DNA from: a virus
DNA: 52,846 nucleotides
IMG/VR virus record: IMGVR_UViG_3300047457_000684
Location: 1-52,846 of that record
Reading direction: 5' to 3' (one strand)
Within the stretch, counting starts at the first letter, position 1, and each line of letters starts with the position of its first letter. Positions 5,964-50,465 of the stretch are shown here, piece by piece. The translations under genes were made by a program, and so were the position numbers. A model generated the notes under the pieces. The model was not told the origin of the DNA. It saw only the letters and a list, made by a program, of their open reading frames with translations, and searched no databases.

Positions 5964-8477
5964 GTGCCCTCCGCAATCGATGCCGCAGACGGCCAGTGGC
6001 CTCGTCTGTTACAGGAACTCGGCGGCCTCGCGCCTGAGCAGCTCACCAACACCCATCAGCCCTGCCCAGCCTGTGGTGGCACCGACCGTTACCGCTGGGA
6101 TCGTGATGACGGCCCCGGCGGCTGGTTCTGCAATCAGTGCGGCGGCAAAGATCACCGTGGCGGCGCTGGTTCCGGCATGGACCTGCTCACCCGCGTCACC
6201 GGCTGGCCCTTCGCTGATGCCTGCCGCCGCATTGAGCAGCACCTCGGCATCACCATCACCCCACCCATCCCCGAGCCGCCTACCGCTGGCGCTGAGCACG
6301 TCTGGCGCTACTCCGACACCTTCTACGTCTGCCGGTTCCCTCAGAAACGCATCCGGCCGCTCTGGTACGACGGCACCGCCTGGCGGTGGAAGGTGCCACC
6401 ATCCCCGCGCCCGCTCTACTGGGCCCGTCGTGCTGCTGGCGCTCCGGTACTCATCACCGAAGGCGAGAAGGCCGCTGATGCCGCCGCCACCCTTTTCCCC
6501 GATCACGCCATCGCCACTTGGCCATCGGGCTGCAAGGCCATCGACAAGGCCGACTGGAATCCACTCCGTGGCCGCTCCGTCGTCCTCTGGCCCGATGCCG
6601 ACCAGCCAGGCCGTGATGCCATGGCGAAACTCGCCACACGGCTCCTAGCCCTCAATTGCACTCTCCAGGTCGTCAACCCACCTGAATCTGCACCCAACGG
6701 ATGGGATCTCGCCGATGCCCTCGCCGAGGGCTGGACACCTGATCGCGCTGCACGCAACCTCCAGCAATTCGCTCGGACCATTGAGCCGCCTGAGCCGGAA
6801 ACCGTGCAAACCGTGCAGGCCGAGCCCGGAACCGTGCAAACCGTGCCGGCCGCCGCAACACCACCCGCTCACCAGCCTTTCACGTGCCTTGGATTCGACG
6901 AAGGCAACTACTACTACCAACCCTCCAGCACCGGACAGATCACACGCATCGGCCGCGGCAACCACACCGAGACGCATCTGCTGACCCTCTGTCCTGAACT
7001 CAGCTACTGGGAAACGCTCTATCCCAGCCGCAATGGCATCAACTGGACAGCAGCCAAAGCCTCACTCTTCGCTCAACAGGCGAAGGTCGGCATCTTCTCC
7101 CCAGACCGCATCCGTGGTCGCGGCGCCTGGTGGGATGACGGCCGCGCGGTCCTGCACCTCGGCGATCGCCTCATCGTTGACGGCGTGGCGCACAGCGTCA
7201 TGAAACCGCCGCCGTCGCGCTTCTCCTACCAGCGTCTAGCCGCCATCGACATTCCCGCTGACCTCCAGCCGCTCACTGATCAGCAAGGCGCTGAAATCCT
7301 CGACATCGCCTCTCGCTTCCTATGGGAGGTGCCCGCATCCGGCCTACTCATCGCTGGCTGGGCTGCCCTCGCACCCATCTGTGGCAGCCTCAGCTGGCGC
7401 CCACACATCTGGCTCACCGCTTCCGCAGGCTCCGGTAAGTCCGTCCTGCTGGATCGCTTCCTTGGCACCCTGCTGGACAGCCTCGCCCTCTGGCCTGAAG
7501 GCTCCACCAGCGAGGCCAGCATCCGCCAGGAACTCCGCGCTGACGCCCTGCCGGTGATCATGGATGAGGCCGAGTCCAACGAACTCGCGGACCGCAACCG
7601 GATTCAGAACATCCTCGCCCTAGCCCGTGTCGCCTCCAGCTCAGGCCGTGGCTTCGTCGGGCGTGGTGGTGCCGATGGCGCTGCACAGCGCTACGTGATC
7701 CGCTCCATGTTCCTGCTGTGCTCCATCTCAACCGCGCTGAAACAGGGAGCCGATGCGTCCCGCTTCGCACAGCTCACACTGCGCAACCCATCCTTCATGC
7801 CGCTGGAGCAGCGTCAGGCCCACTGGACCGAGCTAGATCGCGACCTCACCGCCATCATCACCCCAACACTGGGCCATCGGATGGCGCTGCGCTCCGTAGC
7901 CCAAATCCCAATCATCCGCGATTCCGTGGCCGCCTTCCGCCGTGCTGCGGCTAACCGCTTCGACTCCCAGCGCCAGGCCGATCAGTACGGCACCCTCCTA
8001 GCCGGCGCCTGGTCGCTCATGAACGACCGCGTAGCTACCGATCAGGACGCCTACGCCCTCATCGACGCCAACGACTGGACCCAGTACCGCGAAGCCACCG
8101 AGCAGTCCGATGAGGAACGCTGCCTGGCGCGCATCCTTCAACATCAGCTCAGGGTCGAGGCCGATCGCGGCGCCGCATATCAGCGCACCGTTTGGGAGCT
8201 CGTTGAGATCATCCGGGGCACCGCCACCTGCATTGAGATCACCGCAGCCGTCGCTGAGGCTCACCTAGGCCGCATCGGTCTGCGCGTCATGGATGGCCGC
8301 CTGCTGGTCGCCAACACCGCCCTGGGCCTGCAGCGCATCCTCGCCGATACCCCATGGGCCACCAGCTGGCCAACCATCCTGTCCCGCCTGCCCGATGCCC
8401 AAAAGCCCGGCAAGGTCCGCTTCCGTGGAATGGAGCGCAACAGCCGGGCCGTGTCCCTGCCGCTCGATCTGGGCTGA
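5964..8477 (+). CDS. Phage primase-helicase (zinc-ribbon, TOPRIM, P-loop ATPase)
   Basis: The protein has 837 residues from a GTG start. The N-terminus has a primase zinc ribbon (C34-x2-C37, C56-x2-C59). A TOPRIM-like primase segment follows from about 155 to 230 (LITEGEKAAD and LWPDADQPGR, with its acidic D-x-D). A linker contains a short repeated sequence (TVQTVQAEPGTVQTV, about 278-297). The C-terminal half is a DUF927-like helicase with Walker A ASAGSGKS near 484-491 and an acidic Walker B PVIMDEAE near 530. It should prime and unwind DNA at the phage origin; the iteron block directly downstream fits this. Confidence 0.88.
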   Translation: MPSAIDAADGQWPRLLQELGGLAPEQLTNTHQPCPACGGTDRYRWDRDDGPGGWFCNQCGGKDHRGGAGSGMDLLTRVTGWPFADACRRIEQHLGITITPPIPEPPTAGAEHVWRYSDTFYVCRFPQKRIRPLWYDGTAWRWKVPPSPRPLYWARRAAGAPVLITEGEKAADAAATLFPDHAIATWPSGCKAIDKADWNPLRGRSVVLWPDADQPGRDAMAKLATRLLALNCTLQVVNPPESAPNGWDLADALAEGWTPDRAARNLQQFARTIEPPEPETVQTVQAEPGTVQTVPAAATPPAHQPFTCLGFDEGNYYYQPSSTGQITRIGRGNHTETHLLTLCPELSYWETLYPSRNGINWTAAKASLFAQQAKVGIFSPDRIRGRGAWWDDGRAVLHLGDRLIVDGVAHSVMKPPPSRFSYQRLAAIDIPADLQPLTDQQGAEILDIASRFLWEVPASGLLIAGWAALAPICGSLSWRPHIWLTASAGSGKSVLLDRFLGTLLDSLALWPEGSTSEASIRQELRADALPVIMDEAESNELADRNRIQNILALARVASSSGRGFVGRGGADGAAQRYVIRSMFLLCSISTALKQGADASRFAQLTLRNPSFMPLEQRQAHWTELDRDLTAIITPTLGHRMALRSVAQIPIIRDSVAAFRRAAANRFDSQRQADQYGTLLAGAWSLMNDRVATDQDAYALIDANDWTQYREATEQSDEERCLARILQHQLRVEADRGAAYQRTVWELVEIIRGTATCIEITAAVAEAHLGRIGLRVMDGRLLVANTALGLQRILADTPWATSWPTILSRLPDAQKPGKVRFRGMERNSRAVSLPLDLG

Positions 8478-8593
8478 TCCGTCCCGCATGTCCCGGCCGT
8501 CCCGCTGGCTCGGGACGTGGGAAACGCCTGCAAATACTGGGTTTGTCCCGCTTGTCCCGCTTGTCCCGCTTTTTCGTGGGGGATAGCCCCTCA

Positions 8594-8637
8594 TGCGCGT
8601 GCGCGTGTGCGCGTGCGCGCGCGTGTGTGTGTGTATG
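8594..8637. repeat. Alternating purine-pyrimidine (GC/GT) tract
   Basis: About 44 bp of alternating G-C and G-T steps. Such tracts can form Z-DNA under supercoiling and melt easily. It lies at the centre of the iteron field. Confidence 0.85.
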
Positions 8638-8898
8638 TCTATCTGTAGAAACGGGACAAACGGGACAAAGCGCTCAGATCGCAGTGGTGGCGCGGTTTTT
8701 CGGCTGTCCCGCCTACCGGGACATGGCGGGACATGGCGGGACAGTCTTTGTGCTTCCGGAATCGCAGGGCTAGGATTCAGGCATCGGGCACAGCTACGCT
8801 GGCCCCGCCGGGTCGGTCCTACCCGCAAGGATGGACGCGGTGTCGGGGTTACGAGTGGCCCTGGCTGAAACCGCATCGGAGGCCCGGTTTCACGGGTT

Positions 8899-8926
8899 GG
8901 GGTCTATGGGATTTCCCATAGACCCC
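8899..8926. repeat. Perfect inverted repeat, 13-bp arms, TT centre
   Basis: GGGGTCTATGGGA, then TT, then its exact reverse complement. As RNA it would form a long hairpin; as DNA a cruciform. There is no following T-run, so a simple terminator is unlikely. It shares the central GGATTTCC with the palindrome at 8969-8990. Confidence 0.9.
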
Positions 8927-8968
8927 TTCTCGTTGGTGGGGTCGGCTCAGATCTCAATGCAGCCATAG

Positions 8969-8990
8969 GTCCGTCGGATTTCCGACGGAC
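8969..8990. repeat. Perfect inverted repeat, 10-bp arms, TT centre
   Basis: GTCCGTCGGA, then TT, then its exact reverse complement, 42 bp after the first palindrome. The centre GGATTTCC is identical in both, while the outer arms differ, suggesting one binding protein or one structural role. Confidence 0.9.
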
Positions 8991-9092
8991 GTACGCCGCG
9001 ATACAAAACCCAGGCCCTTGACGTGCTGCGGTCTGCTGTGCTTATGCTGCAGATGTCGGCAGCGATGCCGGCGCTCACTCGCTGCATTCACC

Positions 9093-9779
9093 ATGACCAA
9101 TACCGGCATCGTTGTCCGCACCTGGAACGACGCACCGATCAGCCGCCGCGATTCCGACGGCTACGCCGACGCCACAGCCATGTGCCAGGCCAACGCCAAG
9201 CACCTTCCGCATTACCTCAGCAACCAGCGCACCACCGAGTACATCGCCGCCCTGGCCGATGCCACCGGCCTCCAGCCCGCTCAGCTGGTGATCACAACCA
9301 CCACAGGCCCCAACCACCTTCGCGGCACCTGGATTCACCCGCGCCTCGCCGTAGACCTCGCACGCTGGATCTCACCCGCCTTCGCCGTTTGGATGGATGG
9401 CTGGTTCCTCGATGCCGCCCATCAGTCACCACAGCCCGCTGCTCTGCCTGACCATCACTGCCAATACTGCGGCAAGCCGATCGACAATCTCAACGGTCGC
9501 CGTTACTGCTCCGCTGCATGTCGCAAACGCGCCTGGCGCCGTGCTCACAATCCTGCACTGATGGCGTCTTCACCGCCGCCTGCTCTCTCCATCCACCAAC
9601 CAGCACCAACCCTCCCCCACGGCGTCCACGTCGTCGCCAACTCTCATCGTGAAGCAAGCTGGTTATGGGCTCTCGCTGTAGAAAAACACGTCGGCCAAGC
9701 ACTCATGGCCAAAATCGTCGATGAGCGACAACGCCACATCACTCCATCGGTCCAGCTTCATCTTCTCAACGCTGCCTAA
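9093..9779 (+). CDS. KilA-N domain protein with zinc-ribbon tail
   Basis: The protein has 228 residues from MTNTGIVVR. Residues about 1-105 form a KilA-N domain (DGYADATAMCQ, NQRTTEYIAALA, GTWIHPRLAVDLARWISPAFAVW), a DNA-binding fold common in phage regulators. Around 118-150 there is a Cys4 zinc ribbon (CQYCGKP...RYCSAACRKRAWR). I prefer the ATG at 9093 because upstream in-frame codons encode a Cys/Leu-rich run unlike protein. TTGACG at 9018-9023 with CTTATGCT about 18 bp downstream could be a promoter. A terminator follows directly. Confidence 0.85.
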   Translation: MTNTGIVVRTWNDAPISRRDSDGYADATAMCQANAKHLPHYLSNQRTTEYIAALADATGLQPAQLVITTTTGPNHLRGTWIHPRLAVDLARWISPAFAVWMDGWFLDAAHQSPQPAALPDHHCQYCGKPIDNLNGRRYCSAACRKRAWRRAHNPALMASSPPPALSIHQPAPTLPHGVHVVANSHREASWLWALAVEKHVGQALMAKIVDERQRHITPSVQLHLLNAA

Positions 9780-48437: not shown

Positions 48438-49916
48438 CTACGCAGGCAATGACAGCTGCTGCCACTGGCTGGCTGTGACTGTGCGGGCAACGCGGCGTTT
48501 TGGCCTCGCTGCAGCAGGCACAGCAGGACAGGTAATCGCCTCTAGCTGGTGCATGCCAGCTCCCATTGGCGCCGGGGCCATAGGGATCACGGCATCGGGC
48601 TTGGCACGCCGCAGGATGTTCACCGCTGCGTTGTGGTCGGCATTCATCGTGTGCCCGCAGCTGGTGCAGCGGAACAGCGACTGGCTGACGCGGCTGGCAC
48701 CGTCAACCACGCCGCACGCTGGACACGAACGGCTTGTATTGGTAGGGCTGACGCGCTCCACCGTGCGACCCAGGTCGCCAGCCTTCGCCTCCAGCATCGA
48801 ATACAGCCCGCCAATCCCTGCATCATGCAGTGCACGGTTCAGGCCAGCCTTCGACGCTGCATTGTTCGGCAGGTATCCGGTCCCATCCTTGTTCGGCTTT
48901 GCCGCCGGCCGCCGCACCATGTTCGCCAGCTTTAGATCCTCAACCACCACCGTCCCGTAGGTACGCAGCAGGTAGGTAGTGGTCTTGTGAGCGAACAGCT
49001 TTCGCGTGCGCCGGATTCGCTCATGCAGCAGCGCCAACTTCGCCACGGTCTTTTGCCAGTTGGCGCTGCCCTTCTGCTGCCGTGCCATCTGCTGTTGCAG
49101 CCGCTTCAGCTTGCGCAGCCCAGCAGCCAAAGCCGCAGGGCCGTCAATGTGCTTCCCGGTGCTGGTGGTGAGCGTGTGCGCCACGCCAGCATCGATACCA
49201 ACCGCTAACGACGTCTCGCGCACCTTCGGCGCTGCCACGTTGCCCACCAGCAGCAGATACCAGCCGGAGGGCTCGCGGCTCACCCTGAAGGTGCAGCACT
49301 CCAGACCGTCGGGCCATCGCCGACCATCACGGTTGCCCTTAATCCGCAGCTCGCCCAACACCGGCAACTTCACGATGTCGCCATGCACCGCCGTGGATTT
49401 CTTGCAGTCCTGATCGCTCAGTGTGGTGATCGGAAACCGATCAGACTTGAATCGCGGCATCTTCCGCTTGCCCTTGCGATACTCGCCCCACGCCGTAGCA
49501 AGAGCCTTCAGCGTACCGCGCAGCAGATTGTTGGGGCAGCCCTGCAGCTCCGGCCAGCTGGGGTGGTTCTTCTTGGCGAAGAACGACGCCAGGCTGAAAT
49601 AGCTGTCATTGCTCAGCCGCGGCTGCCGGTAATCCTGCGGGATCGGACAGCTCAGGCCGGCGCGACGATGCGTCCTGATCGTGCTGTATGGGATGGCCTG
49701 CCAGCTGTCGTCCGGGGCCTTCTGCCAGCGGTAGGACCACGGCACCGGGCAGCAGGGCGCTAGGGCCTTATCGGCTTTGTTGTAGTGACTGAAGGCCTCG
49801 ATCTCCTGCAGCAGGGCTAGGCCGTAGTTCCAAACCCGCCGCTGGAGCAGCAGCCAGGCCTCCAGCTGAGCCTCCTGGCTGCGGGTTGGGTAGGCTCTAA
49901 ACTCCAATGTGCGCAT
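48438..49916 (-). CDS. TnpB/Cas12-family RNA-guided nuclease candidate
   Basis: 492 residues from MRTLEFRAYPTRSQEAQL, a start that matches TnpB N-termini; a longer frame runs to 50081 but crosses the divergent gene. Expected RuvC residues are all present: D242 in VGIDAGV, E326 in VVVEDLK, D427 in MNADHNAAVNIL. A four-Cys zinc finger (C398, C401, C417, C420) follows SPTNTSRSC. The region 40-150 has an extra segment and the last 60 residues are an additional basic tail, making it longer than usual TnpB (about 350-420). No tnpA transposase is adjacent. A repeat mini-array and RHH gene lie upstream. It could be a TnpB or a miniature type V-U effector. Confidence 0.85.
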   Translation of the reverse strand: MRTLEFRAYPTRSQEAQLEAWLLLQRRVWNYGLALLQEIEAFSHYNKADKALAPCCPVPWSYRWQKAPDDSWQAIPYSTIRTHRRAGLSCPIPQDYRQPRLSNDSYFSLASFFAKKNHPSWPELQGCPNNLLRGTLKALATAWGEYRKGKRKMPRFKSDRFPITTLSDQDCKKSTAVHGDIVKLPVLGELRIKGNRDGRRWPDGLECCTFRVSREPSGWYLLLVGNVAAPKVRETSLAVGIDAGVAHTLTTSTGKHIDGPAALAAGLRKLKRLQQQMARQQKGSANWQKTVAKLALLHERIRRTRKLFAHKTTTYLLRTYGTVVVEDLKLANMVRRPAAKPNKDGTGYLPNNAASKAGLNRALHDAGIGGLYSMLEAKAGDLGRTVERVSPTNTSRSCPACGVVDGASRVSQSLFRCTSCGHTMNADHNAAVNILRRAKPDAVIPMAPAPMGAGMHQLEAITCPAVPAAARPKRRVARTVTASQWQQLSLPA

Positions 49917-49939
49917 GGCCCCTTGCCATCTGACGCGCA

Positions 49940-49950
49940 TCGTACTACGA
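49940..49950. promoter_or_regulatory. Operator-like palindrome between nuclease and RHH genes
   Basis: TCGTA-C-TACGA in the 41-bp divergent gap. Small two-fold symmetric sites are typical targets for RHH repressors, so the adjacent RHH protein may repress both genes. Confidence 0.5.
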
Positions 49951-49957
49951 TTGGAAC

Positions 49958-50137
49958 ATGGCTGAGGGGGTTCGGATCCAGCTTGTCGTTCCTGAAGGAC
50001 TGGCGACCGCTCTACGCGAGCGTGCAAAAGCCGAAGGGCGCACCGTCTCCAATCTGGGGGCGTTCCTACTGGAAACCGCACTCCGTCAACTACCTCCCCT
50101 GTTCGGGGGCTCGCCTGGGTTGGACCGGGAGAGTTGA
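49958..50137 (+). CDS. Ribbon-helix-helix protein divergent from the nuclease
   Basis: 59 residues (MAEGVRIQLVVPEGLATALR...). VRIQLVVPE forms the DNA-contacting strand, followed by GLATALRERAKAEGR and TVSNLGAFLLETALRQL as the two helices, a CopG/Arc-type pattern. Only 41 bp separate it from the divergent nuclease start, with a palindrome between. Such a gene next to tnpB-like genes suggests control of nuclease level. It is not closely similar to the RHH at 5789. Confidence 0.75.
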   Translation: MAEGVRIQLVVPEGLATALRERAKAEGRTVSNLGAFLLETALRQLPPLFGGSPGLDRES

Positions 50138-50312: not shown

Positions 50313-50465
50313 GTCTCTACTGTTGCTCTTGGGCAATAAGAAAGGGCTGATTCAGCAGTCTCTACTGTTGCTCTTGGGCAATTGATGGGCAACGGTGGGC
50401 AAGTGAGTGCTCGACACCAGGCAGGCCTGGTCTCTACTGTTGCTCTTGGGCAATTGATGGGCAAC
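50313..50465 (-). CRISPR. Mini repeat array, two perfect 36-bp repeats plus one partial
   Basis: Perfect 36-bp copies lie at 50358-50393 and 50430-50465, separated by a 36-bp unique spacer (50394-50429). A third copy (50313-50337) keeps 25 bp exactly, then 20 unrelated bases. On the strand of the nuclease the repeat starts GTTGCCCATCAATTGCC and ends GCAACAGTAGAGAC, and the kept 25 bp are its 3' part, the end that forms the crRNA handle in type V systems. GTTGC and GCAAC can pair within it. The small copy number means tandem duplication cannot be excluded. No cas1/cas2 are seen. Confidence 0.5.

Follow-up and report, generated by a model that had tools for sequence, protein, structure and literature searches.

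The window analyzed here is the whole 52,846-nucleotide stretch of DNA from virus record IMGVR_UViG_3300047457_000684. It encodes a GpA terminase, portal, protease, major head protein, tape measure protein, central tail fibre, and endolysin, together with a large serine recombinase-type integrase, RecT, SSB, a Gam-like protein, and a sigma factor. This gene content indicates a tailed phage that is probably temperate. Among annotated phages, Synechococcus phage S-H1 (MK105819; 51% identity) is closest to it in primase sequence. A 358-aa open reading frame at 9721-10797 matches phrog_1924, annotated as a minor tail protein; at a comparable place, S-H1 has a gene annotated as the DNA polymerase III beta subunit. 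At 50313-50465 there are three 36-nt direct repeats, two of them identical and the third 72%, with starts 45 and 72 apart; they precede a - strand gene (48438-50081) by about 230 bp. With a score of 361.9, this gene exceeded the cut-off of 350 for NCBIfam type V C2c8, and it matched PADLOC Cas12f/Cas12u2. Repeats and gene may together represent a mini CRISPR array carried by the phage and its TnpB-like effector; the exact 36-nt repeat did not turn up in other viral contigs.

A field of short repeats (iterons) follows the gene of a predicted primase-helicase, the first iteron lying 3 bp past the stop at 8477. The field contains 13 exact GTCCCG/CGGGAC hexamers within the 262 bp from 8481 to 8742, where approximately 0.14 are expected. 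The gene and the field comprise the following features.

5964..8477, + strand: primase-helicase gene (837 aa), proposed initiator.
8079..8474, + strand: C-terminal domain of the primase-helicase (residues 706-837), winged-helix-like, proposed iteron reader.
8412..8414, + strand: codon of K817, which covaries with iteron base 3.
8418..8420, + strand: codon of R819, which covaries with iteron base 6.
8481..8516, no strand: outer-left iterons, GTCCCG at 8481, 8490, and 8499 (+ strand) plus CGGGAC at 8511.
8517..8544, no strand: left spacer between the outer and inner arrays, containing an AAC..GGGTTT element.
8545..8568, - strand: inner-left array, three iterons in 9-bp steps (8545, 8554, 8563).
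8569..8651, no strand: centre between the inner arrays (83 bp), proposed opening region.
About 8594-8632: GC/GT alternating tract inside the centre.
8623..8652, no strand: proposed unwinding element GTGTGTGTGTGTATGTCTATCTGTAGAAAC, the least stable 30 bp of the field in a nearest-neighbour scan.
8652..8666, + strand: inner-right array, two iterons (8652, 8661), inverted relative to the inner-left array.
8706..8742, no strand: outer-right array, one reversed iteron (8706), then iterons at 8717, 8727, and 8737.

The initial annotation, made from the sequence alone, had described at least twelve iterons directly after the primase-helicase gene, with direct copies facing inverted ones at spacings of 9 and 10 bp, and this description proved accurate. 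All eleven positions that it listed are exact matches on the + strand (GTCCCG at 8481, 8490, 8499, 8545, 8554, and 8563; CGGGAC at 8652, 8661, 8717, 8727, and 8737), and their start-to-start spacings are 9/9, 9/9, 9, and 10/10 bp. Two further copies, CGGGAC at 8511 and GTCCCG at 8706, complete the 13. In the 400 bp 3' of the primase stop the best hexamer reached 13 copies, compared with at most five for any hexamer in 200 dinucleotide shuffles. There is no overall enrichment across the window (24 hexamer copies versus a shuffle mean of 27.3); 13 of the 24 sit in 8481-8742, and the remaining 11 GTCCCG sites are isolated, so that the window has a single cluster. The centre is modestly enriched in AT (0.41 versus 0.34 in the gene), with 0.51 in its last 35 bp. 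A search of Rfam gave no match at gathering score. A terminator-like hairpin with a 12-bp stem lies at 8899-8926, between the iteron field and a KilA-N gene. Cumulative GC skew, which had been suggested as a check on the origin proposal, lent it no support: the minimum lies near 11 kb, away from the field, where the skew does not flip, and we rejected GC skew as origin evidence.

The primase-helicase is predicted to consist of a zinc-ribbon primase domain, a TOPRIM domain, an AAA+ helicase core, and a C-terminal DNA-binding domain. Its sequence matched Pfam Zn_Ribbon_Prim (3e-12) and phrog_35358 DNA primase (4.5e-132); Toprim_3 fell below the cut-off, and a search against the PDB gave nothing useful. 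The full-length structural model shows likeness to DnaG/T7 primase, the AAA+ domain of MCM, SCCmec Cch, and SaPI PriRep1. By Foldseek its best match was SCCmec Cch (5dgk; E, 9e-8), followed by NrS-1, PriRep1, SaPI5, and the poxvirus D5/E5 helicases, and residues 97-287 adopt a DnaG/T7 primase fold in the model. The C-terminal domain was modeled by AF2 as a winged-helix-like fold (pLDDT, 92.3; pTM, 0.86). Its structural matches are weak: the C-terminal domains of SaPIBov1 Rep (8tch; Z, 4.5), Cch (5dgk; 3.3), and PriRep1 (7pds; 2.9) rank among the best matches of residues 706-837 (VIA best Z, 4.5), and Foldseek with this domain alone returned none at E ≤ 0.001 and none below E 0.9. The P4 origin-binding domain was absent among the structural matches shown, which excludes nothing. 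Residues 817 to 819 form the first strand and turn of the terminal beta hairpin, or wing, of the C-terminal model.

Distribution of the field was analyzed around relatives of the primase. Eighty loci were fetched first, and a second viral scan and a genome scan added more. Among the 76 loci (window included) with sufficient downstream sequence for the shuffle test, 65 had a best post-primase hexamer that was never equalled by 200 shuffles. A hexamer with at least six copies was present in 98 of 147 unique 350-bp downstream regions, versus 3 of 147 same-size stretches inside the primase gene; fields were weak or mixed at some loci, the best hexamer having fewer than five copies in 32 of the 147. 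The iteron letters vary (CGGGAC, CGTAAC, CGTTAC, CGTTAG, CGGAAC, CGGTAC, CGTGAG, and CGTAAG), usually with one hexamer per lineage and some CGTAAC/CGTTAC mixtures. As in the window, the fields of the relatives begin directly behind the primase gene, and the order of the parts is kept: an outer array, approximately 30 to 45 bp, an inner array, the centre, an inverted inner array, approximately 45 bp, and an inverted outer array. In the relatives the inner arrays run in 8- to 9-bp steps, and 42 to 46 bp after the inner-right array comes a reversed iteron followed by forward iterons at 9 to 13 bp, an outer-right order common to many of them. An element like the AAC..GGGTTT of the left spacer was noticed in relatives by eye only. 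A search for the same layout in related phages had been proposed together with the origin, with a lack of conservation in iteron spacing and number as the evidence that would speak against it; iteron number, orientation, and spacing are conserved.

Both inner arrays and the centre were detected automatically in 68 of 95 nonredundant labelled fields, with a centre of 61 to 112 bp (median, 98 bp). The centre was AT-richer than the gene in 67 of these 68 fields, as were the 35 bp preceding the inner-right array in all 68 (mean AT, 0.64 versus 0.37; in the window, 0.51 versus 0.34). In the relatives the spacer within it is simple sequence of varying kind, with alternating GC/GT, CT, GA, or AT. The GC/GT tract to which the initial annotation had drawn attention is real, but its sequence is not conserved; it is the local form of a variable simple-sequence spacer and incidental in its letters. 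A functional Z-DNA role of the tract was considered and rejected, as relatives carry CT/GA, AT, or mixed simple sequence at this place.

Genomic relatives were mostly found in assemblies of Cyanobium, Synechococcus, and Vulcanococcus, and the layout also occurs beside primase homologues in Paraburkholderia and Pararobbsia genomes (L212 and L213). Bdellovibrio phage phi1422 has the same layout, with 12 copies of GGTAAC, after a primase that is just 34% identical. No field followed the primase homologue in 10 of 13 annotated phages inspected. In Acinetobacter phage Acjo_20 (L089, 49-400), 11 GTTACA copies lie on the upstream rather than the downstream side of the primase homologue, within 300 bp. 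Several primase-origin modules were present in single assemblies, namely Cyanobium sp. Cruz-8D1 (L188, L190, L200, L201, and L209) and Synechococcus sp. HJ21-Hayes (L176, L182, L191, and L206). Within one host assembly the iterons of these modules are partly different and partly the same, which bears on incompatibility.

We compared the iteron bases with the residues of the adjacent primases. The discovery set comprised 47 representatives drawn from the first 81 primases; in it, R stood at position 819 in 37 of 37 with C at iteron base 6, and W, H, or Y in 10 of 10 with G. The full set comprised 139 labelled loci, reduced to 84 representatives at 95% identity. R819 was found in 62/62 representatives with C at base 6 and W, H, or Y in 21/21 with G, and one field had T. 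The rule holds in 83 of the 84. Among these 84 are 39 that were not used for finding it, of which 18 were labelled automatically (18/18 fit) and 21 by hand (20/21 fit). Overall, 26 loci were labelled by hand after residue 819 was visible; the automatic labels presuppose CG[GT]NA[CG], leaving base 6 free between C and G. The misfit is L214, where base 6 is T and the choice of alignment decides whether residue 819 reads as R or S. Several loci were dropped before the count of 84: L207 (mixed iterons), L192 (short), L193 and L194 (weak), the fieldless L215 and ten phage-collection loci (L085-L090 and L093-L096), L208, L210, and L211 (no clear field), L109, L122, and L203 (stop absent), L151 (hardly any downstream sequence), L217 (no tblastn hit), re-fetched copies of earlier contigs, and the near-copies L118-L121, L166, and L167.

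Residue 819 ranked first of 458 variable columns by normalized mutual information (nMI) with iteron base 6 (0.78; next, 0.44; label-shuffle maximum, 0.29). On a helicase-core tree, from which L183 fell out, base 6 and residue 819 each change 10 times, and independent pairs agree in 8 of 8 cases (p = 0.0078). A second association links residue 817 to base 3: K817 occurs in 7/7 representatives with G at this base and in 0/77 others, an association that amounts to two independent pairs only. Base 3 is C in L105 and L106 and A in L132, and none of these has K817. Five supposed exceptions with P or S at 817 and an apparent G at base 3 (L184, L187, L191, L196, and L202) fit the rule, since their fields read CGTCCC or CGTTCC, with T at base 3, in the layout orientation; this re-orientation was made after the conflict with the 817 rule was seen. 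For bases 4 and 5, no comparable residue was found. An arginine opposite a C-G pair makes a chemically familiar contact to G, and we infer that R819 contacts base pair 6 directly.

The covariation could in principle reflect genetic linkage only, with the field being the origin of the same module but bound by another phage factor or a host factor. The linkage itself is real, in that the C-terminal domain and the field do travel together. Linkage predicts a similar association for many columns of the C-terminal domain, however, and residue 819 alone stands out: none of the other 119 columns exceeds 0.44, and the median over all 120 is 0.17, which makes linkage alone a poor account of the covariation. 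The non-R residues W, H, and Y differ among lineages yet pair only with G, and the fold in whose wing residue 819 lies is predicted to bind DNA. We consider an unrelated binder very unlikely.

It is similarly improbable that the iterons form an operator array, bound by a regulator and controlling the downstream or primase operon rather than replication. Short-repeat arrays can act as operators, and a KilA-N gene follows the field at 9018-9779, its product being one of two candidate binders named by the initial annotation. In none of 159 loci covering at least 1.5 kb beyond the primase, however, was a KilA-N homologue (E ≤ 1e-5) found, and the KilA-N protein was rejected as the iteron binder. 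No sigma-70-like promoter was found in 8300-9150, and the iteron bases track residues of the primase, the other named candidate, which the covariation strongly supports. Autoregulation by the primase-helicase is possible as a second role of the field. A packaging (pac) site or partition centromere is extremely unlikely: such sites are also built from repeated short motifs, and the terminase genes begin 2.3 kb downstream of the field (11041), but the position of the field after the primase is shared by records with two different terminase families (GpA in 6 of 17 contigs or records tested, phrog_2 in 8 others, one of them weak, and neither in 3), the covariation is with the primase, and the scanned window proteins included no partition gene, which counts against a centromere.

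The C-terminal domain and the field appear, from sequence comparison, to be inherited and sometimes exchanged as lock and key. In one clear pair, L059 and L074, DNA identity is approximately 90% on both flanks; between -300 and +300 around the primase stop it drops to approximately 0.43 to 0.74, and beyond this it recovers to 0.91. Where one contig has CGTAAC iterons and R819, the other has CGTAAG and Y, and the alignment indicates that domain and field were replaced jointly, as a segment of approximately 600 bp. L105 and L123 have helicase cores that are 97.7% identical, C-terminal domains that are 46.9% identical, and different iterons. The pairs L176/L178 and L026/L028 have the look of gradual divergence instead.

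Because the layout is conserved and the iteron bases covary with C-terminal residues of the primase, the origin reading survives. We conclude, with a probability of roughly 0.9, that the iteron field is a phage replication origin read by the C-terminal domain of the upstream primase-helicase, with a recognition code at residues 817 and 819 and a specificity cassette of approximately 600 bp; that replication starts here and that the domain binds directly are what we infer from this pattern. The iterons would be binding sites for the C-terminal domain of the primase-helicase encoded directly upstream, and the two inverted arrays would seat two helicase rings in opposite orientation around the centre of approximately 83 bp. 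The weak stretch beside the inner-right array would melt, the rings would load on single strands and depart in both directions, and the DnaG-like (TOPRIM) half of the same polypeptide would prime. Specificity would reside in the wing, with residue 819 reading base pair 6 and residue 817 reading base pair 3, and the adjacent domain and origin would form a single cassette.

The field is most likely an origin of the SaPI/PICI type, and the symmetric design, which the initial annotation had called unusual, is the one described for PICI/SaPI origins in PMC6092414. According to PMC7581432, the C-terminal domain of SaPI Rep acts on iterons directly downstream, the protein apparently working as two hexamers. 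As in the rep-ori of SaPIBov1 Rep and SaPI5 PriRep1 (PMC6092414 and PMC7581432), the origin directly adjoins the 3' end of the initiator-helicase gene, two sets of iterons flank a meltable AT-rich centre (the enrichment being modest in the window), and an AAA+/D5-like helicase carries a C-terminal DNA-binding domain, to which the structural matches and the covariation point here; self-loading is predicted. The helicase and C-terminal domain also resemble the PriRep1 and Rep structures. Unlike a PICI satellite, the phage in the window has a terminase, portal, protease, major head protein, tape measure protein, tail fibre, and endolysin, and its SaPI/PICI-type origin would be that of a complete tailed phage. 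Its primase half is of the DnaG-like Zn_Ribbon_Prim/TOPRIM kind, unlike the AEP primase of SaPI, the hosts are mainly picocyanobacteria, and a base-residue code and cassette exchange are visible.

Phage P4 alpha is likewise a single-polypeptide primase-helicase with a C-terminal origin-binding domain and iterons, which lie in two separate regions, ori and crr. The window differs in having one hexamer cluster, although the record may be incomplete. P4 is also mentioned in PMC6092414. In SCCmec, as described in PMC7581432, an iteron site downstream of the gene is bound by the C-terminal domain of Cch2, as proposed here; SCC elements differ in being chromosomal cassettes, the iterons of Cch2 are three copies of AAGTG, and its primase is separate and polymerase-based. 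The PLE satellites of Vibrio cholerae (PMC8263062) provide a parallel for the covariation and modular exchange: the DNA-binding domain of the initiator RepA and the origin covary and are exchanged as a module, with an origin-cutting phage nuclease as a selective agent. PLE uses RepA_N and three iterons of approximately 30 bp and is a satellite. In S-H1 a CGTTAG field follows the primase and residue 819 is W, as the rule predicts; its primase gene bears only the annotation hypothetical protein, and the stretch seen has no annotated origin. Searches of the open-licence full-text literature listed no such origin in a cyanophage. SaPI-type organization and PLE covariation and exchange are already known; what our comparisons would add is their occurrence in full phages, with a base-residue code.

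These results point to an origin type in complete tailed phages of picocyanobacteria, locate probable origins in unannotated cyanophages, and provide a testable base-to-residue recognition code for a putative self-loading replicative helicase. The natural cassette swaps in nearly identical backgrounds (L059/L074 and L105/L123) make it testable why initiator-origin pairs diversify. Tentatively, a group of tailed phages may carry a SaPI-type origin whose lock-and-key code diversifies, each iteron base being matched by one wing residue and altered either by point change or by a swap of the cassette. In this way, related phages sharing a host population might maintain replicons that differ in specificity; the pressure to do so could come from origin-cutting nucleases, satellites, or co-resident replicons, as described for PLE.
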